Shown: positions 50,151-63,795 of the stretch, one piece after another
Layout of the letters: each line of letters opens with the position of its first letter
Numbering within the stretch: position 1 is the first letter of the stretch
Source of the DNA: Chromatiales bacterium (ex Bugula neritina AB1)
GTDB taxonomy: Bacteria; Pseudomonadota; Gammaproteobacteria; Granulosicoccales; Granulosicoccaceae
Direction of reading: 5' to 3'
DNA: 64,000 nucleotides
Assembly: GCA_001730015.1 (NCBI GenBank)
Contig: MDLA01000175.1
Span: 248,001-312,000 of the forward strand
Translations under genes and position numbers: made by a program
Notes under the pieces: generated by a model
What the model was told of the DNA's origin: nothing
Databases searched by the model: none
What the model saw: the letters and a program-made list of their open reading frames with translations, nothing else

Positions 50151-51188
50151 CTAGATGCCAATTGAAGGGTAGGCAATTGTCTGCAGTTCGCTGTGCGGTG
50201 TTTGCCTGATCGAGCCAATTACGGCCTTTGCCAGCTCGCGCCCTGCCTGGTGGATGTCTTCATCAATGGTTACAATTTCAGGCCGAAAACGCGACAGAAT
50301 ATTCATGTTCTGTTTGGAGACGATATCGACATCCCGACCAACTACCAGGCCGGCGGCTTCTATGCCGCATGTCAGGGCGATTGTTGAGCCACCACTCATC
50401 GAGATAATGCCATCGGGCCGGTGTTTCTGTTGAAACACATGTTTTATCTGATTTTCTATAAAGTCCAGTTTGTGGTCAATTGTGCATGGCAGAGATGGCC
50501 AGGGCTCAAGGCTATGTGCTCGCAATTCGTTTTTATAGCCGTCAAATGCGTGGTGGTAGAAGGTAACGCTGTCCGGTGGTGCCAGCAAAGCGATGCGTGA
50601 GCGATTTCGTTCGAGCAATTGTCTGGTTGCATCAGCTGCGAATTGCTTGTTGTCGAAGTCGTGAAACGGGTGGTCAATGTCCATGAGTGTTCTGCCATGG
50701 GTTGCAAACGGAATGCGTTGCGAATGCAAATAGCCGACGCGTTCATCGTGGGGCTCCGTTCGAGACATTATTATTCCGTCCGCCGTGCGATGCTCAACAA
50801 TATAGCGAATGGCATCAAGCGGGCTTTGATCCTCGGTGTATGGCGTTATCGTCAGGTGATACGGTGTAGAGCTCAGCGCTTCTGATACGCCCCGGACCAT
50901 ATGCGAGGTCAGCCCCATTATTTCTTCGTCCAGGCTCAGCACCAGGCTGATCACATTGGTTTTTCCGGTGCGCAGGCCAACACCGGCCCGGTTCGGAATA
51001 TAGCCAATCTGCTGTGCAACCTCACGTACCCGTTGCTTGGTTTTTTTGCCTATATCCGGAGCATCTTTCAGTGCTCTGGATACAGTGGTGGTGCCGAGCT
51101 CGGTGATTGAGGCAATGGTTTTCAGGGTGGGGCGGGCAGCTCCGGAATTCCGGGTGTTCGCAGTGCTGGGGTCTCTTTTACTCGCCAT
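50151..51188 (-). CDS. LacI-family transcriptional regulator of the sugar locus
   Basis: About 345 residues from the ATG at 51188 (an earlier in-frame ATG at 51257 gives 23 unlikely residues). The N-terminal HTH has TLKTIASITELGTTTVSRALKDAP, then the hinge region and a periplasmic-binding-protein-like effector domain (GLTSHMVRGVSEAL, ADGIIMSRTEP, FDGYKNELRAHSL). It is divergent from a sugar ABC transport operon with a perfect palindrome between them. It is expected to repress until a sugar ligand binds. Confidence 0.94.
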   Translation of the reverse strand: MASKRDPSTANTRNSGAARPTLKTIASITELGTTTVSRALKDAPDIGKKTKQRVREVAQQIGYIPNRAGVGLRTGKTNVISLVLSLDEEIMGLTSHMVRGVSEALSSTPYHLTITPYTEDQSPLDAIRYIVEHRTADGIIMSRTEPHDERVGYLHSQRIPFATHGRTLMDIDHPFHDFDNKQFAADATRQLLERNRSRIALLAPPDSVTFYHHAFDGYKNELRAHSLEPWPSLPCTIDHKLDFIENQIKHVFQQKHRPDGIISMSGGSTIALTCGIEAAGLVVGRDVDIVSKQNMNILSRFRPEIVTIDEDIHQAGRELAKAVIGSIRQTPHSELQTIAYPSIGI

Positions 51189-51221
51189 GGTTACTTGGTG
51201 TATAGCAGCCGCAGTGTGGCT

Positions 51222-51238
51222 CACAGATAAATTCTGTG
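51222..51238. promoter_or_regulatory. Inverted repeat near lacI-type gene start
   Basis: CACAGATAAATTCTGTG has 6-bp arms around a 5-base centre. It lies 34 bp before the regulator start. It differs from the CTGTAACGTTACAG palindrome, so it would suit a different protein, or chance. Confidence 0.25.
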
Positions 51239-51276
51239 CTTGCGCCGCCTTGATCACAGTGGTTAAATATCATTAC

Positions 51277-51290
51277 CTGTAACGTTACAG
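51277..51290. promoter_or_regulatory. Perfect LacI-family operator, 14-bp palindrome
   Basis: CTGTAACGTTACAG is a perfect palindrome with the central CG typical of LacI-family operators. It lies 23 bp before the binding-protein ATG and 89 bp from the divergent regulator start. A repressor here would block the transport operon promoter or early transcript. Confidence 0.8.
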
Positions 51291-51313
51291 TTTTCCGGAG
51301 GAGACAACAACCG

Positions 51314-52558
51314 ATGAAGATTAAAAATACCCTGACCGCGCTGGCTGCAGCGATTTCTTTTTCTATAGCGGGTTCGGCAACCGCGACCGATATTGAAGTA
51401 ACCCACTGGTGGACCTCGGGTGGTGAAGCCGCTGCGGTAAAGGTGTTTGCAGAGGCATTTAATGCCGGCGGTGATAACTGGGTCGATGGCGCCATTGCAG
51501 GCTCCGGTGGTGTTGCCCGTCCGATCATTATCAGTCGAATTCTGGGTGGCAAGCCCATGGGCGCAACTCAGCTCAATCACGGTCGTCAGGCTGAGGAGTT
51601 AGTTGAAGAAGGCCTCATGCTTGATCTGACCGAGCTTGCCGAAAAAGAAGGCTGGAAAGATCTGGTGCGGCCGTCATCTCTTATAGAAAGCTGCACACTC
51701 GATGGGAAAATCTATTGTGTGCCGGTCAATATTCACAGCTTTCAGTGGATGTGGACAAGCCTCGATGCCTATAAAAAAGCCGGTATAGATGCTCCTGAAA
51801 CATGGCACGACTTCGTCGCCAGTGCGCCCAAATTACGCGAAGCAGGTATTACTCCGCTGGCGGTTGGTAATCAGCCGTGGCAGACCAATGGCATGTTCGG
51901 TGTCATACAGATGGGGCTCGGCGGTATAGATCTCTATCGCCAGACAATGGTCGATCGTAACAGTGATGCCCTGCGTGGCGAGAAGATGGCTGAAATCTGG
52001 CAGGCATTTTCCGATGCACGCGAACTGGATGATCCCGAGAACAGCATTCAAAACTGGAACGATGCCACCAATCAGGTGATCACAGGCAAAGCCGGTGCAC
52101 AGATCATGGGCGACTGGGCGCAAGGTGAGTTCCAGGTAGCCGGTCAGACAGCAGGCACCGAGTATGATTGCTTGCCTGGCCTGGGTATAGCACCCGCGCT
52201 CGACACCGGAGGCGATGCTTTCTATTTCCCCGTCGTTGACGACGAAGAAGTCACCGCTGCGCAGAAACGCATGGCCTCAATGATGATGAGCAAGGCAGTA
52301 CAGGTCGGCTTTAACCTCGCGAAAGGTTCATTGCCGGTTCGTGCAGATGTTGATCTGTCAGCCGCCAACGGCTGCATGAAAAAAGGCCTGGCCATTCTGG
52401 ATAATCCAGACAATATCGTGTCAGCCGGCGTACAGCTGCTGTCAGCAGACACTACCGGTCAGTTGGAAGATCTGCTGGTTGAATTCTGGAATGACCCGAG
52501 TATGGCTGCAGCCGATGCTCACGATGCATGGGCCACCATTATTGAAGAAGCCGACTGA
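51314..52558 (+). CDS. Sugar ABC transporter substrate-binding protein (family 1)
   Basis: 414 residues with GGAGGAG upstream and a signal peptide (LTALAAAISFSIAGSATA). The mature part has IEVTHWWTSGGEAAAVKVFA, aromatic residues for sugar stacking (HSFQWMWTSL, GNQPWQTNGMF) and MGDWAQGEF. It resembles the glucose/mannose-type binding proteins of the CUT1 class. In this locus the ligand is probably a xylo- or manno-oligosaccharide or its monomer, inferred from the downstream GH43 and GH2 enzymes. Confidence 0.93.
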   Translation: MKIKNTLTALAAAISFSIAGSATATDIEVTHWWTSGGEAAAVKVFAEAFNAGGDNWVDGAIAGSGGVARPIIISRILGGKPMGATQLNHGRQAEELVEEGLMLDLTELAEKEGWKDLVRPSSLIESCTLDGKIYCVPVNIHSFQWMWTSLDAYKKAGIDAPETWHDFVASAPKLREAGITPLAVGNQPWQTNGMFGVIQMGLGGIDLYRQTMVDRNSDALRGEKMAEIWQAFSDARELDDPENSIQNWNDATNQVITGKAGAQIMGDWAQGEFQVAGQTAGTEYDCLPGLGIAPALDTGGDAFYFPVVDDEEVTAAQKRMASMMMSKAVQVGFNLAKGSLPVRADVDLSAANGCMKKGLAILDNPDNIVSAGVQLLSADTTGQLEDLLVEFWNDPSMAAADAHDAWATIIEEAD

Positions 52559-52586
52559 AGCGACGTTCCGTTAGCGTAACACTCAA

Positions 52587-52623
52587 GGGCGGCACTATTC
52601 TATAGAACAGGGTAGTGCCACCC
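52587..52623 (+). terminator. Stem-loop between binding-protein and permease genes
   Basis: Arms GGGCGGCACTA and TAGTGCCACCC pair with one mismatch around a ~15-base loop. No T-run. It probably protects the binding-protein mRNA or attenuates the permease genes. Confidence 0.6.
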
Positions 52624-52662
52624 GGCCTTGCAGAGGCTGTTTATAGAACTGTAAGGCGCTGC

Positions 52663-53619
52663 GTGTTTGCAAACCACACGGATCAAGTTGCCTGCTATCT
52701 CTTGAATACCCCAAAAACCTCCTCCCGCGGGCGTCGTCATCCGCTGCTTCGCAACCTGACCGCAAAGCTTGCTGCAACGCCGATGATTGCAACGGCATTG
52801 TTTATTTTTGTCGGTTGCTCTGCGTGGTCAGTGGTGTACTCGTTCACATCATCTAAGTCTCTGCCGCGTGAACGTTTTGTTGGCTTAAAGCAATATGACC
52901 GACTGTTTGATTCCTCCCGTTGGATGGAATCGATGGAAAATATCGCCGTTTATGGAATCTGTGCGCTTGTCTTTTCCCTCGGCGTCGGGTTTCTTCTGGC
53001 GGTGGCAATGGATCAGAAAATACGCTTCGAAAACACGTTTCGAACAATCTTCCTTTATCCGTTTGCTCTCAGTTTCATTGTTACAGGGCTGGTCTGGCAG
53101 TGGGTTCTAAACCCCGATTTCGGTATTCAGCAGGTAATCAGAGATTTAGGCTTCACCACGTTTGAATTCAATCTGCTGGCCAGTCGCGAATACTCTGTCT
53201 ATGCGCTGGTTATTGCCGGTTTATGGCAGGGCACAGGCTTTGTAATGGCGCTTATGCTGGCAGGGTTACGAAGTATCGATCAGGATATCTGGAAAGCCGC
53301 GCGCGTCGATGGCATACCCGCCTGGCGCACTTATTTATTTATCGTTATCCCGATGATGAGGCCGGTCTTTATAACCACGCTGGTCATTATCGCATCGGGT
53401 ATTGTCAAGGTATATGATCTTGTGGTGGCGCTGACCGGCGGCGGGCCGGGAATTTCATCAGAAATGCCAGCTAAATATGTGTACGACTACATGTTCGGCC
53501 GTGCCAATTTAGGGCAGGCGTTAGCTGCCTCCACCGTTATGCTGGCGACCGTACTGATCATCCTGATTCCGTGGGCGTATCTGGAGTTCAGTCAGAAAAA
53601 GGAAAGCTCCCATGCTTGA
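52663..53619 (+). CDS. Sugar ABC transporter permease 1 (CUT1)
   Basis: I choose the GTG at 52663 (318 residues) because TAAGG precedes it by 6 bases. The longer in-frame GTG at 52615 lies inside the right arm of the stem-loop. Six helices are predicted, with TSSKSLPRERFVGLKQYDRLF in the first periplasmic part and the EAA-type loop ARVDGIPAWRTYLFIVIPMM. It forms the channel with permease 2, and overlaps it by 8 bases. The start remains uncertain; a TTG at 52702 is a third option. Confidence 0.88.
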   Translation: MFANHTDQVACYLLNTPKTSSRGRRHPLLRNLTAKLAATPMIATALFIFVGCSAWSVVYSFTSSKSLPRERFVGLKQYDRLFDSSRWMESMENIAVYGICALVFSLGVGFLLAVAMDQKIRFENTFRTIFLYPFALSFIVTGLVWQWVLNPDFGIQQVIRDLGFTTFEFNLLASREYSVYALVIAGLWQGTGFVMALMLAGLRSIDQDIWKAARVDGIPAWRTYLFIVIPMMRPVFITTLVIIASGIVKVYDLVVALTGGGPGISSEMPAKYVYDYMFGRANLGQALAASTVMLATVLIILIPWAYLEFSQKKESSHA

Positions 53620-54499
53620 GCCCGGCCCGCACGGCGCCAGACCCAGGCGTATGCTCACGCCAAACAACATCATGCTGTATGGCTTTTTAATAGTTGCGGC
53701 CCTGTACTGGTTACTGCCGCTCTATGTCATGGTGGTTACCTCGCTTAAAGGTATGCCCGAAATACGTCTCGGTAATATTTTTGCTCCACCAGTCGAGGTA
53801 ACGTTTGCGCCGTGGATAAAAGCCTGGGATAGCGCATGCACCGGGCTTTACTGCGAAGGGCTGAAAGTCGGGTTTAGTAACAGTGTGCTGATCCTCGTGC
53901 CGAGCGTTGTGATATCGATCATCATCGCATCGATTAATGGCTATGCCTTGTCTTTCTGGAAGTTCAAAGGCTCAGAAGTATTTTTTACTATTCTTATCTT
54001 CGGGGCTTTTATTCCGTATCAGGTATTAATCTATCCACTGGTTATAATTCTGCGAGAGCTCGGTCTGTTTTCGACACTGGGTGGCGTAATACTGGTGCAT
54101 ACTATATTCGGCATGCCAATCCTGACGCTGCTTTTTAGAAATTATTTTGCCAGTGTGCCGGCTGAGCTCTTCAAGGCGGCTCGGGTTGATGGCGCCGGTT
54201 TCTGGCGCATCTTTGTGCAAATTATGTTGCCGATGTCATTACCCATATTTGTTGTGGCAATCATTCTTCAGGTCACCGGTATCTGGAACGATTTTCTGTT
54301 TGGTGTAATTTACGCGGGTACCCGCAACTTCCCCATGACGGTTCAGTTGAACAATATTGTTAATTCCAGTCAGGGTGTTAAGGAATACAATGTCAATATG
54401 GCAGCAACATTGCTCACCGGAGCTCTGCCTTTAATCGTTTATTTTATATCTGGCAAGCTGTTTGTGCGCGGCATAGCCGCAGGAGCGGTAAAAGGATGA
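53612..54499 (+). CDS. Sugar ABC transporter permease 2 (CUT1)
   Basis: 295 residues, six helices, first helix IMLYGFLIVAALYWLLPLYV then MVVTSLKGMPEI as in MalG/AraQ-type proteins, and the EAA-type loop ARVDGAGFWRIFVQIMLPMS. It overlaps permease 1 by 8 bases and the ATPase gene by 4 (ATGA), so the three are co-translated. Confidence 0.93.
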   Translation: MLEPGPHGARPRRMLTPNNIMLYGFLIVAALYWLLPLYVMVVTSLKGMPEIRLGNIFAPPVEVTFAPWIKAWDSACTGLYCEGLKVGFSNSVLILVPSVVISIIIASINGYALSFWKFKGSEVFFTILIFGAFIPYQVLIYPLVIILRELGLFSTLGGVILVHTIFGMPILTLLFRNYFASVPAELFKAARVDGAGFWRIFVQIMLPMSLPIFVVAIILQVTGIWNDFLFGVIYAGTRNFPMTVQLNNIVNSSQGVKEYNVNMAATLLTGALPLIVYFISGKLFVRGIAAGAVKG

Positions 54500-55584
54500 G
54501 TAGCGTTGTCGTTAACGATTTATCGCTGAATTTCGGCAGTATCGAGGTGCTGAAGTCGCTCAATCTTGAAGTAGCCGAAGGTGAATTTCTGGTGCTTCTT
54601 GGACCCTCCGGGTGTGGTAAATCCACTCTGCTGAACTGTATAGCCGGGCTGCTCGATGTATCTGCCGGTCAGGTAATAATCAATAACCGGAATGTGACCT
54701 GGGAAGAGCCGAAAGACCGTGGTATTGGCATGGTCTTTCAATCCTATGCGCTCTATCCACAGATGACGGTAGAAAAAAATCTGTCGTTTGGCCTGCGCGT
54801 AGCCGGACTGCCGAAAGCCGAAATACGCCAGCGCGTCGATCGTGCTGCGGAAATTCTACAGATTGGCGCATTGCTGAAACGCAAACCCGGTGCCTTATCC
54901 GGAGGGCAGCGCCAGCGGGTTGCCATCGGGCGGGCACTGGTGCGTGATGTCGATGTATTTCTGTTTGACGAACCGCTGTCTAACCTTGACGCCAAACTGC
55001 GCACAGACCTTCGAGTGGAACTGAAGCGATTACACCAGCGCCTTGGAAACACCATGATCTACGTAACCCACGATCAAATCGAAGCGCTGACACTCGCTGA
55101 TCGAATCGCTATTATGAAAGACGGATTAATTCAGCAGCTGGATACGCCGCTTGGCATCTATAACAAGCCCGATAATCGTTTTGTAGCCGGCTTTATCGGT
55201 TCACCCAGTATGAATTTCATGCAGGGGAAACTGGTTCAAAGCGGTGATCAATGGCTGTTCAGCAGCGGCGATCTAACCTTCACCCTGCAGGGCTATGAAT
55301 TTTCGCAACGGCCGCAACAAGGAACGCCGGTAGAGTTTGGTATTCGTCCGGAGCATATAGTCATTGGCGACGGCGTGGCGTCACAGTCCATACAAACCAC
55401 ACTCGATATAGAACTCGTAGAGCCGATGGGTGCCGATACCGTTGTCTGGAGTAATCTTGCTGGCGGCAGCTTTACTCTGCGTGTTGACTCTGAAGCCGTT
55501 ATAGAGCAGAAGCAACAATTACCTGTCGGGTTCAGCGCATCGCGCGCGTCTTTGTTTTCTATTGCCGACGGAACGCGAATTTAG
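54496..55584 (+). CDS. Sugar ABC transporter ATP-binding protein (MsmX/UgpC type)
   Basis: 362 residues with Walker A GPSGCGKST, the Q-loop in MVFQSYALYPQMTV, signature LSGGQRQRVAIGRALVRD, Walker B VFLFDEPLSNLDAKL and switch THDQIEA. The C-terminal OB-type TOBE domain (EFGIRPEHIVIG) is typical of the MalK-like group. It powers the permease pair encoded just upstream. Confidence 0.95.
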   Translation: MSSVVVNDLSLNFGSIEVLKSLNLEVAEGEFLVLLGPSGCGKSTLLNCIAGLLDVSAGQVIINNRNVTWEEPKDRGIGMVFQSYALYPQMTVEKNLSFGLRVAGLPKAEIRQRVDRAAEILQIGALLKRKPGALSGGQRQRVAIGRALVRDVDVFLFDEPLSNLDAKLRTDLRVELKRLHQRLGNTMIYVTHDQIEALTLADRIAIMKDGLIQQLDTPLGIYNKPDNRFVAGFIGSPSMNFMQGKLVQSGDQWLFSSGDLTFTLQGYEFSQRPQQGTPVEFGIRPEHIVIGDGVASQSIQTTLDIELVEPMGADTVVWSNLAGGSFTLRVDSEAVIEQKQQLPVGFSASRASLFSIADGTRI

Positions 55585-55706
55585 TCGTTTCTGCTTGTTC
55601 GAGCTGGTTCGTAACGCAGATATAATCAGAATTTTAATGTGGTGAATGTTTCATTGCATGATAAATACAGACTAACCAAACACTTAAACTGAAGACCACG
55701 ATACCC

Positions 55707-56453
55707 ATGGAAAACCTTTCGTTTCAATTATTCAGTGCGCGAAATACTCCACTGTCCGAGGCGCTCGAAATTATATCGGCAAGTGGCTATCGGTATGTTG
55801 AAGCTTATCGCGATAACGTCACCGATCTAAATACCTTTGAGGCCGGGTTGAAGACTAACAACCTTCAATGCACATCGATACATATCGGCATTGATGAGCT
55901 TAAGAATAATTTGTCTCACTCCCTTGAGCTGGCTGAGCGACTGGGCATAAAGCAAATTGTCTGTCCCTATCTGATGCCAGAGCAAAGACCGGCGGATACC
56001 GCAGGCTGGAAAGCACTGGCCGAGGAGCTGGCCGGATACGCGAAACTGATCAACGCGGCAGGTTTGCCATTCGCCTGGCATAACCACGACTTTGAATTTA
56101 CGGCAACAGAAGATGGCGCCTTGCCTATCCGAATCCTGCTCGACACTGCCACTCAGATGCAATGGGAAATTGATCTGGGCTGGATACAGCGGGCGTCAGA
56201 GAGCCCGGCTTCCTGGCTGCGAACCTATAGTGATCGTATCAGTGCTGTGCATTTGAAAGATCTGGCAGAGGAGGGCGACTGCCTGGATGAAGATGGATGG
56301 GCAGATGTCGGGCATGGCGTGCTTGACTGGCAACAGATACTCCCAGAATTAAAGTCGATTGATGTAGAACACTATGTTGTCGAGCACGATAACCCCTCCG
56401 ACTTAACACGTTTTGCACAGCGTTCTATAGCTACCGTGCAAGGTTGGGCATAA
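55707..56453 (+). CDS. Sugar phosphate isomerase/epimerase (AP endonuclease family 2-like TIM barrel)
   Basis: 248 residues. It has FQLFSARNTPLSEALEIISASGYRYVE at the start (in part) and the metal-site residues in FAWHNHDFEF, EIDLGWIQRA, VHLKDLAEEG and HYVVEHDNPSD. Relatives isomerise keto/aldo sugars or act with inositol or sugar dehydrogenases. A Gfo/Idh/MocA dehydrogenase gene follows 2 bases later, and such pairs commonly act in series on an oxidised sugar. Confidence 0.9.
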   Translation: MENLSFQLFSARNTPLSEALEIISASGYRYVEAYRDNVTDLNTFEAGLKTNNLQCTSIHIGIDELKNNLSHSLELAERLGIKQIVCPYLMPEQRPADTAGWKALAEELAGYAKLINAAGLPFAWHNHDFEFTATEDGALPIRILLDTATQMQWEIDLGWIQRASESPASWLRTYSDRISAVHLKDLAEEGDCLDEDGWADVGHGVLDWQQILPELKSIDVEHYVVEHDNPSDLTRFAQRSIATVQGWA

Positions 56454-56455
56454 CA

Positions 56456-57583
56456 ATGGCCACTATGAATGTAGGTATTATCGGTTGTGGCAATATTTCT
56501 ACCGCTTACCTGCAGCTAGCGCCCGTTTTTGCGAGCTTTAAAATAACAGCCTGCGCCGATCTCAACCCGCAGGCCGCGGCCAAACAAGCCGCAGAGTTTG
56601 GCTGCCAGGCAATGAGCATCGATGAATTACTGGCCGATCCGTCGATTGGCCTGGTGCTTAACCTCACCGTGCCGAACGCTCACTTTGAAGTCTCATCAAG
56701 CGCCTTGCGTGCTGGCAAGCATGTCTATTCCGAGAAACCCTTCGTGCTGTCGGTGTCCGATGGTCAGGCGTTATTGCAGATAGCAGCTGAAAAAGGCTTG
56801 CGCGTCGGGTCAGCGCCAGACACTTTTCTGGGTGGCTCCCATCAGGCCGCGAGGCAGTGTATAGATTCAGGCGTCGTTGGCGATATCATCGGCGGCAGTT
56901 GCTATTTTCAGTCGCACGGTATGGAAAACTGGCACCCTGATCCAACCTTCTTCTTCCAGCCGGGCGGCGGCCCGGTGCTGGACATGGGTGCCTATTACAT
57001 CAGCAATCTTGTGCAGTTTTTGGGGCCGGTTAAGAGTGTTGTGGCAATGGCAGGTAAACCGTTTGCCAGCCGTACCGTTACCAGTGAACCAAACCCGGGT
57101 TCGGTGATCGACGTAAACGTTGATACCTCAGTACGTTCTATACTGCAGTTTGATCAGGGGGCGCAGGTATCGTTTACGGTAAGCTGGGATGTCTGGGCGC
57201 ACGAGCACAACAACATGGAACTCTACGGTACCAAAAGCACACTGTTCGTACCCGACCCCAATCGCTTTGGTCATTCAGTTCGCATCAATGATGGAGAAAC
57301 GGAATCAATCATAGAGCCATTGCAAGTGTTGGGCAGTGCAAACTTTGAAGACATGAACGGGGAAATGATCGCCAATTATCGCGGCATTGGATTGGCAGAC
57401 ATGGTCGCTGCTATTGACGAAGGCCGTCCGCATCGCTGTAGCGGTGAGCTGTCGCTGCATGTGATAGAGGTAATGACATCGATACTGGAATCGGCAGAGA
57501 GCCGCCAGTTTATCGAGCTGTCTACCAGCTGTAGCAAGCCGGAGGCACTGGACGATACAGCAGCGAAAACTCTAATGGCGTAA
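56456..57583 (+). CDS. Gfo/Idh/MocA-family oxidoreductase
   Basis: 375 residues from the ATG at 56456 (an in-frame TTG 12 bases earlier overlaps the isomerase stop). The NAD(P)-binding fold has MNVGIIGCGNISTAYLQ. The EKPF motif (HVYSEKPFVLSV) carries the catalytic Lys, and the C-terminal domain contains GGPVLDMGAYYI with the GG.LxD.G.H/Y pattern. It probably oxidises a sugar or sugar lactone. It is part of the LacI-regulated locus. Confidence 0.93.
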   Translation: MATMNVGIIGCGNISTAYLQLAPVFASFKITACADLNPQAAAKQAAEFGCQAMSIDELLADPSIGLVLNLTVPNAHFEVSSSALRAGKHVYSEKPFVLSVSDGQALLQIAAEKGLRVGSAPDTFLGGSHQAARQCIDSGVVGDIIGGSCYFQSHGMENWHPDPTFFFQPGGGPVLDMGAYYISNLVQFLGPVKSVVAMAGKPFASRTVTSEPNPGSVIDVNVDTSVRSILQFDQGAQVSFTVSWDVWAHEHNNMELYGTKSTLFVPDPNRFGHSVRINDGETESIIEPLQVLGSANFEDMNGEMIANYRGIGLADMVAAIDEGRPHRCSGELSLHVIEVMTSILESAESRQFIELSTSCSKPEALDDTAAKTLMA

Positions 57584-57635
57584 ATGCCTTCGTATTGAAT
57601 TACCACTGCACGCGGTGGCGGATGGAAAACGGTCT

Positions 57636-59285
57636 ATGATAAATAACCCGATCCTCACTGGCTTTAACCCTGACCCGTCTATCTGTCGGGCAGGGAAAGA
57701 CTATTATATCGCCACCTCCACCTTCGAGTGGTATCCCGGTGTGCAGATTTATCATTCAAGGAATCTGGCAGACTGGACACTGATTGCCCGACCGCTGAAT
57801 CGTGCCTCGCAGCTCGACATGCGCGGCAATCCTGATTCCTGCGGAGTGTGGGCGCCCTGCCTAAGTTATGCCGATAATAAATTCTGGCTAATCTATACCG
57901 ACGTCAAACGTTTCGATGGCAATTTCAAGGATGCCCATAATTATCTGGTGACCGCAGACAGCGTCACCGGTCAATGGTCCGATCCCGTCTATATAAATTC
58001 CAGTGGTTTTGATCCCTCCCTGTTTCATGACGACGATGGCCGCAAGTGGTTTTACAATCTGGTCTGGAATCACCGTGCTGCTTCGCTCGGGCAATCCCCG
58101 TTGCACAGCCCCTTTGGCGGCATAGTGTGTCAGGAGTACTCGCATAGCCGGCAGCAGTTGATCGGTGAACCGGAACTGGTCTTTAGCGGTACAGAAAAAG
58201 GGCTGGCAGAAGCGCCGCATGTGTTTAAGCGGGCGGGCTATTATTACCTTATTGTAGCCGAAGGCGGAACCGGCTATGAGCATGCTGTCACGCATGCCCG
58301 CGGCCGTACGGTTACGGGGCCATTTGAGTTACATCCGGATAAATACCTGCTTACTGCAACTCCGAACAACCGCGGACAGTTGCAGCGCACTGGTCACGGC
58401 ATGTATGTCGAAACAGAGCAGGGTGAGGCCTACCATACCTTTTTGTGTTCGCGGCCTCTGCCGGGCCTGCAGCGATCACCGCTTGGGCGCGAAACCGGCA
58501 TCGAGCGTTGTATATGGGGCGATGATGGATGGCTGCGCACATCGCACGGTTCGCAGCAAGCGCACCTGGTTGTAGAATCACCAGCAGAGCTACCCGCATC
58601 TGGTACACCGATGTCGGAAGACACCGCACCTCGGCATACAGAATTCAATATAGCCGAACTGCCTATAGACTTTCAATGGCTGCGCACCCCGTATCCGGAG
58701 CGGCTGTTTTCACTCACCGAGCGCCAGGGTTTTTTGCGTCTATACGGGCGTGAATCGATCGGCAGCTGGTTCGAGCAGTCACTGCTCGCCCGCCGACAGC
58801 AGCACCATTGTTATAGTGCAACTACCACGGTTGAATTCCAGCCAGTGTCTTTTCAGCAAAGCGCCGGCCTCACGGCGTATTACAACCGCCACAAGTTCCA
58901 CTACCTGCAGATCACTCACGATGAAGCGCTGGGCCGGGTTGTCTCCGTAATGAGCTGTAATGGAGATTACCCAGACACCGCTCTGAGTTTTCCTTCCGGG
59001 CAAATTCCCGTTCCGGGCAGCGGTGCCGTATCCCTTCAATGCACCGTAACCGGGTCGGTACTGGAGTTTGCCTGGAAAACAGACGGCGACTGGCGGCCTA
59101 TTGGACCAGCGCTGGATGCATCGGTGTTGTCAGATGAAGGAGGTCGCGGAGAGCACGCATCGTTCACCGGGGCCTTTATTGGAATGATCGCGTTTGACAC
59201 CTCCGGTCGTGCGCAGCCTGCTGATTTTTCGCACTTCACTTATGAGCCGCAAGCTATTTCACCCCCTAGCGTAACCGCAGGTTGA
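57636..59285 (+). CDS. GH43 beta-xylosidase / alpha-arabinofuranosidase-like hydrolase
   Basis: About 549 residues from the ATG at 57636 (MINNPILTGFNPDPSI, the usual start; a GTG at 57615 adds seven). The five-bladed propeller has catalytic Asp in FNPDPSI, the pKa-modulating Asp in SGFDPSLFHDDDG and the acid Glu in GLAEAPHVFKR. A C-terminal concanavalin-like domain (~residues 330-540) matches GH43_11/XynB-type beta-xylosidases. No signal peptide, so it cuts imported oligosaccharides in the cytosol. Confidence 0.93.
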   Translation: MINNPILTGFNPDPSICRAGKDYYIATSTFEWYPGVQIYHSRNLADWTLIARPLNRASQLDMRGNPDSCGVWAPCLSYADNKFWLIYTDVKRFDGNFKDAHNYLVTADSVTGQWSDPVYINSSGFDPSLFHDDDGRKWFYNLVWNHRAASLGQSPLHSPFGGIVCQEYSHSRQQLIGEPELVFSGTEKGLAEAPHVFKRAGYYYLIVAEGGTGYEHAVTHARGRTVTGPFELHPDKYLLTATPNNRGQLQRTGHGMYVETEQGEAYHTFLCSRPLPGLQRSPLGRETGIERCIWGDDGWLRTSHGSQQAHLVVESPAELPASGTPMSEDTAPRHTEFNIAELPIDFQWLRTPYPERLFSLTERQGFLRLYGRESIGSWFEQSLLARRQQHHCYSATTTVEFQPVSFQQSAGLTAYYNRHKFHYLQITHDEALGRVVSVMSCNGDYPDTALSFPSGQIPVPGSGAVSLQCTVTGSVLEFAWKTDGDWRPIGPALDASVLSDEGGRGEHASFTGAFIGMIAFDTSGRAQPADFSHFTYEPQAISPPSVTAG

Positions 59286-59289
59286 TTCC

Positions 59290-61728
59290 ATGATTCAAAA
59301 TCTAGACACAAACTGGCGCCTGCGGCAACCAGGCAGCGAACAATCGATAGCCTTCGCCATTCCCGGAGATATTCACTCGGCACTGCTGGCAGCCGGCAGC
59401 ATCGAAGAGCCCTACTATCGCGATAACGAATTTTCGGTGGATTGGGTAAACCAGAGCGCGTGGGAGATCGAACGCGAGTTCGAAGTAACTTCAGCCGCGC
59501 TTGCAATGAACAGTATATTGATACTCGATCAGGTCGATTGCATTGTTGATGTATTCATCAACAATAATCGGGTCGGCTCGCTGCAGAGCCAGTTTGTGCG
59601 CTACGCGTTTGATGTCGGTTCGCATCTGCAAACTGGCCGCAATACCATTCGAATCTATTTTCATTCCGCCGTGAAAGTGGCCGCCGAAAAAGCCGCAGAA
59701 TTTCCGTTCGAGCTGCCGCACAGTTCAAACTGCCGCCTGCCACATTCAAACCTGCTGCGCAAAACCCCTTGCCATGCCGGCTGGGACTGGAATATCTGCC
59801 TGATGCCAAGCGGCGTCTATGGTGAAATTAGTTTGCAGCACTTTCAAAGCCATCGTATAGACGAGGTTAAGCTGGAGCAGCATTTTGAAGGGCGTGATGT
59901 CGCCGTTATCGCGACTGTCTATATTTGTGTTGCCAGCGCTACAGAGGTCAATTGCACTATAACATTGTGTGGAGCAGAAGCGTCGTGCTCCCAGGCTCTG
60001 GTAGCAGGCATTGCTACTGTGCAATTGCGTGTTACGGTTGCGGATGCCGAACTGTGGTGGCCCGCTGGCAGTGGCGCTCAGACTCGCCACCTGCTGTCGC
60101 TAGAAATAGGCGATCAATCCTTTGAGCAGCTCATCGGCCTGCGCAAGGCAGCGATTGTGCAGACCCCGGATAATGCAGGAGCCGGATTCCGAATCGATAT
60201 CAACAACTGCCCGGTTTTCATGCGCGGTGCAAACTGGATTCCGGCCGATGCCTTGCCACAGCGCGGCACACCAGAGGCAACCCGTGAACTACTGCATTCT
60301 GCCGTAGATGCCAATATGAATATGCTTAGAGTATGGGGAGGCGGCCAGTATGAAGCCAGCTGGTTTTACGAGCTGTGCGATGAACTGGGTATAATGATCT
60401 GGCAGGACTTCATGTTCTCCTGCAATCATTATCCGGCAGCTGATCCCCAGTGGCTGGCGCTTGTGCGTACTGAAGCGAAGCAGCAGGTGCGACGCTTGTC
60501 GGTTTACGCCAGTGTGGTATTGTGGTGTGGCGATAACGAAATTGTTGGTGCCCTGAAGTGGTGGGAGATCACCCGTAATAATCGCGATCGCTATCTGGCC
60601 AATTATGTCCGGATGAATCACGCCCTTGAAGAAACCGTAGAAACCGAACTACCCGATACCGCCTTCTGGCCAAGCTCACCATCCGTCGGCAAGCTCGATT
60701 ACGGTGACGGATGGAAAAACGATGCCGCCGGCGATATGCACTTCTGGGACGTATGGCATGAAGCCAGCCCCTTCTCCGCGTATCAGGAAATTCACCCGCG
60801 TTTCTGCTCAGAGTTCGGCTTCCAGTCTTTTCCGTCTTTACCGCTAGTCAAAACCTTCACCGATGAAGCAGACCGTAATGTATCTTCACCGGTGATGGAA
60901 GTGCACCAGCGCAATGACGGCGGCAATGCGCGAATCGTTGAAACTCTGGTGCGCTATTTTGAATTTCCCGACAGCTTCGACCGCATGCTGTTTTTATCGC
61001 AGTGCCAGCAGGCAATGGCCATTCGTACCGCAGTAGAGTACTGGCGCCTGTTGCAGCCACACTGCATGGGTACCTTGTACTGGCAGTTAAACGATACCTG
61101 GCCTGTGGCATCGTGGGCATCGCTTGAGTACGGCGGCGGCTGGAAACTCTTGCACTACGCAGCAAAACGATTTTATAAACCGTTGCTGGTCGCTATGGTG
61201 CCGGGGCATTCGCGCTTCGGTACCGAAGGCAAGCTGCTGCTCAAAGCGGTAAACGATCAAGCAACCGCGCAGCCGCTAACAGTTGAAATGCGAGCGCTCA
61301 GTGTTGACGGTGAAGAAAAGGGCTGTTGGGATTTTTCCGTCAACGCGATGGAAAATGCCGTAACCGAAATCGCAACAATAACCCCCGAAGACATACCCGA
61401 AGGCTGCTTTTTGCTCTGGGAGTGGTGTGACGCGCAGGGTCAGGTGTTAGGTGAAAATGAATTCTGGCCAGCGCCATACAAGAGTTATCAGTTGCCTGAG
61501 CCAACGGTGAGCATAAAAACCATTAGCGGTGAAGGGCAGCAGCGTAGCTTCGAGCTGACCACAGACAAACCCGCCTTTTTTGTCACGCTGAATCTGGGCG
61601 GTCGGGAAATCTATTCCAGCAACGGCTTTACGTTGTTGCCGGGTGAGCCGAAGCGCATCCTTGTCGATCGAACCATAGATAACGCTCATGCCCCAGTGCT
61701 GGATGGTTTGGAAATCCAGCATTTGTAA
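59290..61728 (+). CDS. GH2 beta-mannosidase-like glycoside hydrolase
   Basis: 812 residues. The N-terminal galactose-binding-like domain has WRLRQPGSEQSIAFAIPGDIHSALL (in part). The barrel has FMRGANWIPADALPQR and the WGGGQYEASWFYELCDELGI region. The acid/base Glu is in LWCGDNEI (~415) and the nucleophile in FCSEFGFQSFPS (~507). These are the marks of the beta-mannosidase branch rather than beta-galactosidase. No signal peptide, so it is cytosolic. It lies 4 bases after the GH43 gene. The pair suggests use of oligosaccharides with mannose and xylose or arabinose. Confidence 0.93.
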   Translation: MIQNLDTNWRLRQPGSEQSIAFAIPGDIHSALLAAGSIEEPYYRDNEFSVDWVNQSAWEIEREFEVTSAALAMNSILILDQVDCIVDVFINNNRVGSLQSQFVRYAFDVGSHLQTGRNTIRIYFHSAVKVAAEKAAEFPFELPHSSNCRLPHSNLLRKTPCHAGWDWNICLMPSGVYGEISLQHFQSHRIDEVKLEQHFEGRDVAVIATVYICVASATEVNCTITLCGAEASCSQALVAGIATVQLRVTVADAELWWPAGSGAQTRHLLSLEIGDQSFEQLIGLRKAAIVQTPDNAGAGFRIDINNCPVFMRGANWIPADALPQRGTPEATRELLHSAVDANMNMLRVWGGGQYEASWFYELCDELGIMIWQDFMFSCNHYPAADPQWLALVRTEAKQQVRRLSVYASVVLWCGDNEIVGALKWWEITRNNRDRYLANYVRMNHALEETVETELPDTAFWPSSPSVGKLDYGDGWKNDAAGDMHFWDVWHEASPFSAYQEIHPRFCSEFGFQSFPSLPLVKTFTDEADRNVSSPVMEVHQRNDGGNARIVETLVRYFEFPDSFDRMLFLSQCQQAMAIRTAVEYWRLLQPHCMGTLYWQLNDTWPVASWASLEYGGGWKLLHYAAKRFYKPLLVAMVPGHSRFGTEGKLLLKAVNDQATAQPLTVEMRALSVDGEEKGCWDFSVNAMENAVTEIATITPEDIPEGCFLLWEWCDAQGQVLGENEFWPAPYKSYQLPEPTVSIKTISGEGQQRSFELTTDKPAFFVTLNLGGREIYSSNGFTLLPGEPKRILVDRTIDNAHAPVLDGLEIQHL

Positions 61729-61803
61729 ATAAATATTTCGCCTTGAGCTATTGTATGATGAGCCGGACCACAAGCCCGTAACCCGACAGATCAGGAGCCA
61801 ACC

Positions 61804-62985
61804 GTGTTCACCGGAATTATACAAGGTGTAGCCACAATTGATCAGCTATCCGACAAAAACGGAATCCGCACCTTGGAAATTGAATTTCCGCAAGGGTTTT
61901 GTCAGGATCTTGAAATCGGCGCCAGCGTAGCCATCGACGGCGTATGCCTGACAGTCACAGAAAATTTATCCGACACCCGCGCCAGTTTCGATGTCATTCT
62001 GCAGAGCCTGTCAGTGACAACGCTGGATAGCTATGAGCAAGGCGCAAACGTCAATGCAGAGCGGGCAGCGAAAGACGGCGCAGAGATTGGCGGGCATCCG
62101 TTATCCGGCCATATCGACTTCACAGCAACCATCAGCGAAATAGAGCATCTGCAAGACAACTTCCGAATGCGCATAGCGGTCGATAAAACCTGGATGCGAT
62201 ATATATTCCCAAAAGGCTATATAGCCGTTAATGGCGCAAGCCTGACTCTCGCAACAGTCGATAAAAAGCAAGGCTGGTTTGAAGTCTGGTTAATACCGGA
62301 AACCCTGAGAATGACCAGCATCGGCAACAAAGCCGTCGGCGATAAACTGAACATAGAAATTGAACGTGGTACCCAGGTAACTGTAGATACAATCAGAGAT
62401 ACCATTGAAGGCAACCTTGGCCGATTGACCCCGGTCTTTGAGCGGCTGTTGCAAGAGCAAGGCATTGATCTAAGCGCAATAGGGGTTAATGGCGGTATTA
62501 GCGTTGATCCCTACGAAGATGATGACGAAGACGAATACAATGATGAATACGAAGATGACGAAAGTTTCAGAATCGAAGTAACCGATACGCCATCGCCTTC
62601 AATTGACGACTACATTATCAATGAAACAAGGCTGTACAATAGCGAGCATATGGAAAGTGACGATCTCCAGAAAATTTCCTGCTATTTCCGTGATCGCGAT
62701 GACTGCATCGTCGGTGGTTTAACGGCAAAGATATACTGGGGCTGGCTGCATATAGAATATCTATGGGTAGAGCAAAGAGAGCGCAGGCAAGACCTCGGCA
62801 AAGTATTGGTTCAATCAGCAGAGCAAGAAGCTGAAAACAGAGGGTGTGTCGGGTCGCAAGTAGATACCTTCAGCTTCCAGGCGCCTGAGTTTTACAAAAA
62901 ACTGGGGTATTCCGTTATGGGTAGCCTTAAGGGTTACAAGGAAGGCGCAGAGCGATTCTATTTGTACAAGCACTTTGGTGAGTGA
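61804..62985 (+). CDS. ribE: Riboflavin synthase fused to a GNAT acetyltransferase
   Basis: A 393-residue protein with a GTG start after CAGGAG. Residues 1-205 are a complete riboflavin synthase alpha chain with two lumazine-synthase-like barrels: MFTGIIQGVA, VAIDGVCLTV and IGGHPLSGHID in the first, KGYIAVNGASLTL and VWLIPETLRMTSIG in the second. It converts two 6,7-dimethyl-8-ribityllumazine to riboflavin. Residues 237-253 are a run of Asp/Glu/Tyr. Residues ~263-393 are a GNAT domain (GWLHIEYLWVEQRERRQDLG, then FSFQAPEFYKKLGYSVMG and RFYLYKHF). Frame is continuous across the join. No FMN riboswitch is seen upstream. The target of the acetyltransferase part is unknown. Confidence 0.9.
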   Translation: MFTGIIQGVATIDQLSDKNGIRTLEIEFPQGFCQDLEIGASVAIDGVCLTVTENLSDTRASFDVILQSLSVTTLDSYEQGANVNAERAAKDGAEIGGHPLSGHIDFTATISEIEHLQDNFRMRIAVDKTWMRYIFPKGYIAVNGASLTLATVDKKQGWFEVWLIPETLRMTSIGNKAVGDKLNIEIERGTQVTVDTIRDTIEGNLGRLTPVFERLLQEQGIDLSAIGVNGGISVDPYEDDDEDEYNDEYEDDESFRIEVTDTPSPSIDDYIINETRLYNSEHMESDDLQKISCYFRDRDDCIVGGLTAKIYWGWLHIEYLWVEQRERRQDLGKVLVQSAEQEAENRGCVGSQVDTFSFQAPEFYKKLGYSVMGSLKGYKEGAERFYLYKHFGE

Positions 62986-63018
62986 CTGGATTGTTGTAGA
63001 TGGTAGTTTGCTTGGCTT

Positions 63019-63795
63019 ATGACGAAGGAAATTCCGCTATCCGGTGGTAATACCACTCAGGGAATAGTCCGGCTTGGAAGCACCGTTCTACGGCCACAGA
63101 AACCTCATAGTCACTCGGTACACTGTTTACTGCAACACCTTGAAGCCCAAAGCTTCGGTAGTTCACCTCGCTTTCTCGGCACCGATGAGAGCAACCGCGA
63201 AGTGCTGTCTTTTATAGAAGGGAGTTCTCGCCAACCGGATAATTTCTATTCTAACACCGGTCTGCTACTGAAAATAGCCCGCTTGCTTCGTGACTATCAC
63301 AATGCTGCGGCCAACTTTGATTTCAGTGGGCTGGAGTGGGCCTATTCCTACCCCGATAACACCCGACATGAAATCATATGCCACAATGATTTTGCACCTT
63401 ATAACATGGTTTTCCAACCCAACGATGCAATCTCAATAATTGACTTCGATCTCGCAGGCCCCGGCCCCAAGCTTCGAGATATTGCCTACGCCGCCTACTG
63501 GACAGTGCCACTGGCTTTTCGAGCGCAAGACCTGGTGAGCAAAGCCCAGGCTGATCTGGCAGACGGCAGTCGCCGATTGAAATTATTCTGCAATGAGTAC
63601 GGGGTTGAAGCCGACTGCGCATTGCTGGATATGGTGTCAGAGGTGCTGCACCACATGGCAGATAAAGAGGCTGTGGCTGAATTGTTAGATCCGGTTGTGG
63701 CCGAAAGTTTAGAAGAGGGCGGTCACTTTGCACATTGGAACGCGGAAGCTGGTGCGTTTGATGGTGTTCGGGAGAGGCTCGGGGAGAATTTGTGA
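63019..63795 (+). CDS. Aminoglycoside phosphotransferase (APH)-family kinase-like protein
   Basis: 258 residues with the Brenner/catalytic motif ICHNDFAPYNMVF (catalytic Asp) and the metal-binding IIDFDLAGPGPKLRD, characteristic of APH/choline kinase-like enzymes. The N-terminal lobe is reduced, with VLRPQKPHSHSVH in place of a standard P-loop/Lys segment. Family members phosphorylate small alcohols, sugars or antibiotics. The substrate here is unknown, and a resistance role should not be assumed. It follows the ribE-GNAT gene by 33 bp. Confidence 0.85.
   Translation: MTKEIPLSGGNTTQGIVRLGSTVLRPQKPHSHSVHCLLQHLEAQSFGSSPRFLGTDESNREVLSFIEGSSRQPDNFYSNTGLLLKIARLLRDYHNAAANFDFSGLEWAYSYPDNTRHEIICHNDFAPYNMVFQPNDAISIIDFDLAGPGPKLRDIAYAAYWTVPLAFRAQDLVSKAQADLADGSRRLKLFCNEYGVEADCALLDMVSEVLHHMADKEAVAELLDPVVAESLEEGGHFAHWNAEAGAFDGVRERLGENL

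Follow-up and report, generated by a model that had tools for sequence, protein, structure and literature searches.

Within the 64,000-nucleotide stretch of DNA analysed here (the window; contig MDLA01000175.1, positions 248,001-312,000 of the forward strand, from the genome we call G000), one open reading frame appears to encode both a riboflavin synthase (RibE) and a GNAT acetyltransferase. This raises the question of whether the two are truly fused, and if so, whether the acetyltransferase has anything to do with riboflavin synthesis. The frame lies on the plus strand, starts with GTG at 61804 behind a Shine-Dalgarno-like AGGAG (61793-61797, same strand), and ends with a stop codon at 62983-62985, encoding a protein of 393 amino acids and 44.3 kDa. 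A first-pass annotation had proposed a single frame joining RibE and GNAT at 61804-62985, and we found that these coordinates are correct and that the frame is unbroken. From N to C terminus and all on the plus strand, it comprises a riboflavin synthase part with both lumazine-binding barrels and a C-terminal helical tail (residues 1-230, 61804-62493; assigned from NF009566, PF00677 and 1i8d), a 24-residue acidic linker (residues 231-254, 62494-62565; delimited by composition, the RibE ends of relatives and model pLDDT), and a GNAT acetyltransferase part (residues 255-393, 62566-62982; assigned from PF00583, the predicted fold and a match to 1y9w). The next gene, at 63019-63795 on the plus strand, encodes an APH-family kinase (PF01636, 48.9 bits).

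In profile searches, NF009566 (PRK13020) matched residues 1-205 with 276.9 bits against a cut-off of 180, and the lumazine-binding family PF00677 matched two stretches of the RibE half, bearing out the earlier proposal that the first 205 residues keep both riboflavin synthase barrels. The closest solved chain by sequence is the riboflavin synthase 1i8d (E = 2.6e-42). We compared this half with 45 other alignment rows and found that it matches all 20 columns invariant across them, along with all 10 columns conserved in 90% or more of the rows. Judged by its sequence, the RibE half is complete and of the E. coli type. It shares with E. coli-type riboflavin synthases (NF009566/PRK13020; PDB 1i8d) the two lumazine-binding barrels and the conserved columns, and differs from them in the acidic linker and GNAT domain added at its C terminus and in the position of its gene, which sits after a glycoside-hydrolase cluster. 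The fusion is the sole PF00677 gene detected in G000, and our PF00677 search of that genome found no second riboflavin synthase.

The GNAT half was matched by PF00583 at residues 288-369 (49.2 bits, cut-off 20.7), and neither this match nor that of the RibE half is due to chance. Structure prediction of residues 254-393 alone, a check that the annotation had suggested, yielded a complete GNAT fold with a mean pLDDT of 93.9, in agreement with the full-looking GNAT fold it had described; the first strand carries no strand assignment in this model. The top fold match is 1y9w from Bacillus cereus (TM 0.82), which together with 2g3a from Agrobacterium tumefaciens is also closest among solved chains by sequence. 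The likeness to these two stand-alone GNATs extends over the whole length in both sequence and fold. They are deposited simply as acetyltransferases, with no substrate named in their entries. Unlike the fused domain, which forms the C-terminal half of a RibE protein and has an aspartate (D330) in its acetyl-CoA loop, both are separate proteins. The GNAT half matches 14 of 14 columns invariant across 41 other rows and 7 of the 10 kept in at least 90% of those rows, the three that differ being V353, K379 and F391.

The two halves are joined by a run in which 13 of 16 residues (238-253) are aspartate or glutamate, confirming the acidic linker noted earlier at 237-253. A full-length model built on a 16-row alignment (mean pLDDT 78.1, pTM 0.51) fell below a pLDDT of 50 at residues 1-3, 92-98 and 227-286; because that alignment misplaces the N-terminal part of the GNAT rows, the low values are informative on the linker only at about 227-254, a stretch that the model suggests is probably disordered or flexible. 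A joint 90-row alignment of RibE and GNAT was misaligned and was left unused. The annotation had asked whether the linker is conserved; we found it missing in five same-genus relatives that have this RibE type. Reading along the fused frame, we found a TTG at residue 216 and then no further ATG, GTG or TTG codon until M283, some 28 residues into the GNAT domain. A full GNAT thus needs the fusion or, less likely, an internal start in the RibE half, where in-frame TTG codons are found at residues 208 and 216.

To place the fusion in context, we compared its gene neighborhood with those of other genomes of the genus. In the nearest relative, G013, the order of genes matches the window: a mannosidase-like gene, a RibE gene (238 aa) that ends in a stop, 37 bases, a GNAT gene (137 aa) with its own ATG, and an APH-family kinase gene. 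Identity between the window and G013 is 78% for RibE and 58-59% for GNAT. G004 has a mannosidase-like gene, RibE and an APH-family kinase gene in succession, and G001 has a mannosidase-like gene, RibE and an aldo/keto reductase; a GNAT relative is absent from the 20-kb stretches of these two genomes (L120, L121), and likewise from within 1.5 kb of RibE in G010 and G009 (L086, L088). Since the genes are separate but in the same order in G013, and other species of the genus have no adjacent GNAT, the pairing began as a gene neighborhood and fusion followed. As far as these sequences indicate, the GNAT gene would either have joined the RibE neighborhood in the G000-G013 lineage or have been lost elsewhere, with the fusion arising later in G000. 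The annotation had held that related genomes with two separate genes and a stop between them would speak against a fusion. Such a stop is present in G013, but it makes the fusion unconserved, not false in G000. Synonymous differences between G000 and G013 are saturated, at proportions of 0.752 for RibE and 0.889 for GNAT, against 0.144 and 0.280 for non-synonymous differences, a pattern that fits purifying selection over most of a divergence in which the pre- and post-fusion periods are not separable. Together, these data are best explained by a genuine fusion, seen in one species so far, of two once-adjacent genes, in which a working RibE tethers a GNAT with near-neutral effect; we assign this reading a probability of about 0.64. 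The fusion is probably a recent joining of neighbors rather than a new kind of enzyme.

Other features of the neighborhood recur among these genomes. The window region preceding the fusion (51254-61728) holds a cluster with a sugar ABC transporter, GH43 and GH2 mannosidase-like genes, and a mannosidase-like gene lies directly upstream of this RibE type in all six genus genomes that have it. An APH-family kinase gene follows the fusion in the window, the GNAT gene in G013 and the RibE gene in G004 (L084 2678-3499; L087 2262-3071).

We next asked how widespread the fusion is. A whole-protein search of 57 genomes (G000 and 56 others) gave some match in 48, and a match spanning both halves in G000 alone, which led us to reject a conserved fusion and gives a narrow answer to the annotation's question about its spread. 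When we ran the RibE model against a class-wide sample of 369 genomes, 333 of them gave a match. Nine other frames of at least 290 aa among the matches listed (G336, G302, G192, G306, G162, G334, G197, G276 and G187) were considered as candidates and none contains a GNAT, nor does either of two long frames from the 57-genome search (G050, G054); the extra length of these eleven comes mainly from open frame upstream of RibE. One class relative (G164:C71:100884-101495; L144) has a RibE-model match with a single in-frame TAA. Searching from the other side, we confirmed at least 396 loci of the GNAT family and fetched 80 of them from named genomes with up to 4 kb of flanking sequence to either side, mostly from Pseudomonas, with Chloroflexota, Paenibacillus, Clostridium and others. 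The GNAT itself was present in all 80 fetched loci and RibE in none, and a link between this GNAT family and riboflavin was accordingly not seen in them.

Among possible viral relatives, 78 stretches matched the search pattern and none was confirmed. On plasmids, 124 records matched a 193-aa query made up of the RibE tail and the GNAT, none of them covering 80% of the query; the eight inspected among them are GNATs or unannotated records. PADLOC gave no match to a defense system, and Rfam gave no match, to a riboswitch or otherwise, at gathering score anywhere in the window. A RibE-GNAT fusion is not named in the titles and abstract openings found by literature search.

The reading of a genuine fusion has to be weighed against a false or unfixed frame, in which a sequencing or assembly error creates the single frame and the cell really has two genes, an acidic-tailed RibE whose end overlaps the beginning of a separate GNAT. 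The closest relative does have two genes, and the fusion and its frame are known from the assembled sequence of one draft genome in 207 contigs. Across 62440-62700, stops are frequent in one of the two alternative frames; the other stays open along the linker, contains ATGs as far as the junction and ends at a stop just beyond it, so that a single base in the linker makes the difference between a fusion and a pair of overlapping genes. On the other hand, the acidic residues are read in the RibE frame and are followed directly by the first conserved residues of the GNAT. In the block shared with G013 (window 50154-61725 and 63007-63792), we could align ten other genes with their G013 counterparts, each without a change of frame across 90% or more of its open frame, in a count that leaves out five antisense shadow frames from the same comparison; the local sequence is thus not rich in frame errors, and we consider a false frame unlikely. 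A real fusion might instead carry a catalytically dead GNAT as a passenger or scaffold only. In the R-x-x-G-x-G acetyl-CoA loop the first glycine is replaced by D330, at a position where 81 homologues have Gly (71), Asn (5), Ser (2), Arg (2) or Asp (1), and the separate GNAT of G013 has no glycine there either, but Ser. Yet the fusion retains R327 (79 of 81 homologues), as well as G332, E340, the QAPEFY motif and K389, each found in 81 of 81; its predicted fold is complete; and the non-synonymous differences from G013 are far below the synonymous ones. The annotation had raised the prospect of a GNAT lacking its acetyl-CoA pocket, and we instead found a complete fold with most of the loop in place, D330 apart. 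The sequence suggests that the GNAT half may be weakened, by D330 and by the change of three of ten highly kept columns, and that it is dead seems to us quite improbable.

Two further readings give the GNAT a role in flavin synthesis. The nearest functional precedent would be, by analogy, RibT of B. subtilis, which keeps a functional RibE-GNAT link possible: the portion of PMC9048828 available to us reports an interaction of RibT with both RibE and RibH, and acetylation of RibH by RibT in vitro, for which K29 is suspected to be the site. In RibT as in the fusion, a GNAT is physically tied to riboflavin synthase, by binding in the one and by fusion in the other. RibT differs in that it is a separate protein, encoded in a ribDG-E-AB-H-T operon, and is proposed to open the 60-mer RibH capsid (PMC9048828). 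By this precedent, the tethered GNAT would acetylate RibE or RibH and tune the last two steps of riboflavin synthesis, and a GNAT gene does adjoin ribE in two species. We nonetheless regard a RibT-like role as distinctly unlikely: none of the 80 fetched GNAT relatives is near RibE; no chain named RibT appears among 60 of the 80 solved sequences matched by the GNAT family profile; and the RibH of G000 fits another model (PRK12419), whereas RibT is proposed to act on the 60-mer capsid. Nor does the gene lie in a rib operon; it follows the sugar-transport and glycoside-hydrolase cluster, and ribD and ribH are on other contigs. Still further from what we observe is a flavin-modifying cassette, in which RibE, GNAT and the APH-family kinase together yield an acetylated or phosphorylated flavin. 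Contiguity of the three genes in two species, and the kinase that follows RibE in G004 as well, would suit such a cassette, but G001 has an aldo/keto reductase and not a kinase after RibE, the fetched GNAT relatives again show no RibE nearby, and G000 has no other detected source of plain riboflavin, leaving this reading very remote. Flavin acetylation had been among the roles suggested in the first-pass annotation, and none of our results speaks in its favor; the fallback offered there, a physical tether only, is the better supported reading. Because no riboflavin gene is near the GNAT in the 80 fetched relatives, its substrate is probably unrelated to flavins. What stands of the annotation as a whole is one frame with two complete-looking halves; a functional RibE-GNAT pairing is without support. 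A broader proposal would make the tethered GNAT a regulator or modifier that works in cis on flavin synthesis, whether in the manner of RibT or on the flavin itself, and that was fixed because it is joined to the cell's only riboflavin synthase, in a genus seemingly with unknown RibA and RibB replacements; this strikes us as improbable too.

If the fusion is genuine and near neutral, as we prefer, the RibE half would most likely act as an ordinary trimeric riboflavin synthase, as knowledge of the family suggests. In the E. coli enzyme, the C-terminal helix is a trimer contact. In the fusion, this helix would lead into the acidic linker as a flexible tether, and the trimer would then carry three GNATs. 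Synteny shows that, in the lineage common to G000 and G013, ribE and the APH-family kinase gene flanked a stand-alone GNAT gene. On the branch leading to G000, changes to the ribE stop and to the short spacer gave one frame, leaving the acidic linker; the sequence itself records this change, and we infer the order of events. The fusion would mainly couple the expression and stoichiometry of RibE and GNAT, and the GNAT would most likely still act on the substrate of its stand-alone relatives, whichever that is, and be unconnected to flavins. We conclude that this is a real-looking, lineage-private fusion of two known parts, an unusual architecture and not evidence of new flavin chemistry. It offers a clean snapshot of the origin of a multidomain protein, with neighbors in one species, a single polypeptide in the next, and a spacer that is now an acidic linker. 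Should the GNAT prove to act on riboflavin enzymes, the protein would put the RibT link into a single chain; at present, it is a rare architecture in which the function of the pairing is putative.

Surveying riboflavin genes across the 14 genomes of the genus (G000-G013), we found two kinds of ribE. The canonical row is nrdR, ribD, a proteasome-like gene, ribE and ndk (complete in G003, and from ribD onward in G006; L122 and L123), and by place and identity six genomes have the canonical ribE (G003, G005, G006, G007, G008 and G012). The corresponding row in G000 (L187, G000:C80:64000-74000) lacks ribE. Another six genomes have the mannosidase-linked, E. coli-type ribE (G000, G001, G004, G009, G010 and G013), and none of the 14 has both copies; in G011 a ribE fragment lies next to rlmN where the contig ends, and G002 has none. 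PF00677 is found in 13 of 14 genomes, and RibD_C in 12 of 14. The only RibH of G000 is a PRK12419-type lumazine synthase (G000:C22:15947-16363; L113 1471-2214; L186), a type not known to form 60-mer capsids. This separate ribH lies behind an FMN riboswitch (L113 2033-2203; Rfam, 95 bits).

The early steps of the pathway present a gap. PF00926 (RibB, DHBP synthase) and PF00925 (RibA, GTP cyclohydrolase II) were each detected in none of the 14 genus genomes, eight of which have a completeness of 90% or more and contamination of 5% or less, and a same-family RibBA query (from G016) returned only two weak matches, the best with E = 0.018. Across the family, PF00926 is found in 27 of 48 genomes: none of the 14 in the window genus (g1), none of three in a second genus (g2; G014, G019 and G022), and 27 of the remaining 31. 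Either the genus requires riboflavin and keeps leftover late enzymes, or it has unknown replacements for RibA and RibB. In Sinorhizobium, a RibBA-independent branch has been reported that uses the formamidase BrbF, with two enzymes undiscovered and "BrbG" and "RibB2" proposed, in the part of the article available (PMC9478397). According to the same text, BrbF had been annotated as a creatinine amidohydrolase, and from this annotation it likely belongs to PF02633. We rejected BrbF as the answer to the missing RibA, since PF02633 is found in one of the 14 genus genomes. The ribBAHE genes reported in most genomes of another clade (PMC8269220, as far as its available text goes) do not help with the gap. 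The missing RibA and RibB touch on the open question of BrbG and RibB2 as posed in the available text of PMC9478397, and may matter more than the fusion. In G000, the ribH gene adjoins a gene resembling EutA/arylmalonate decarboxylase.
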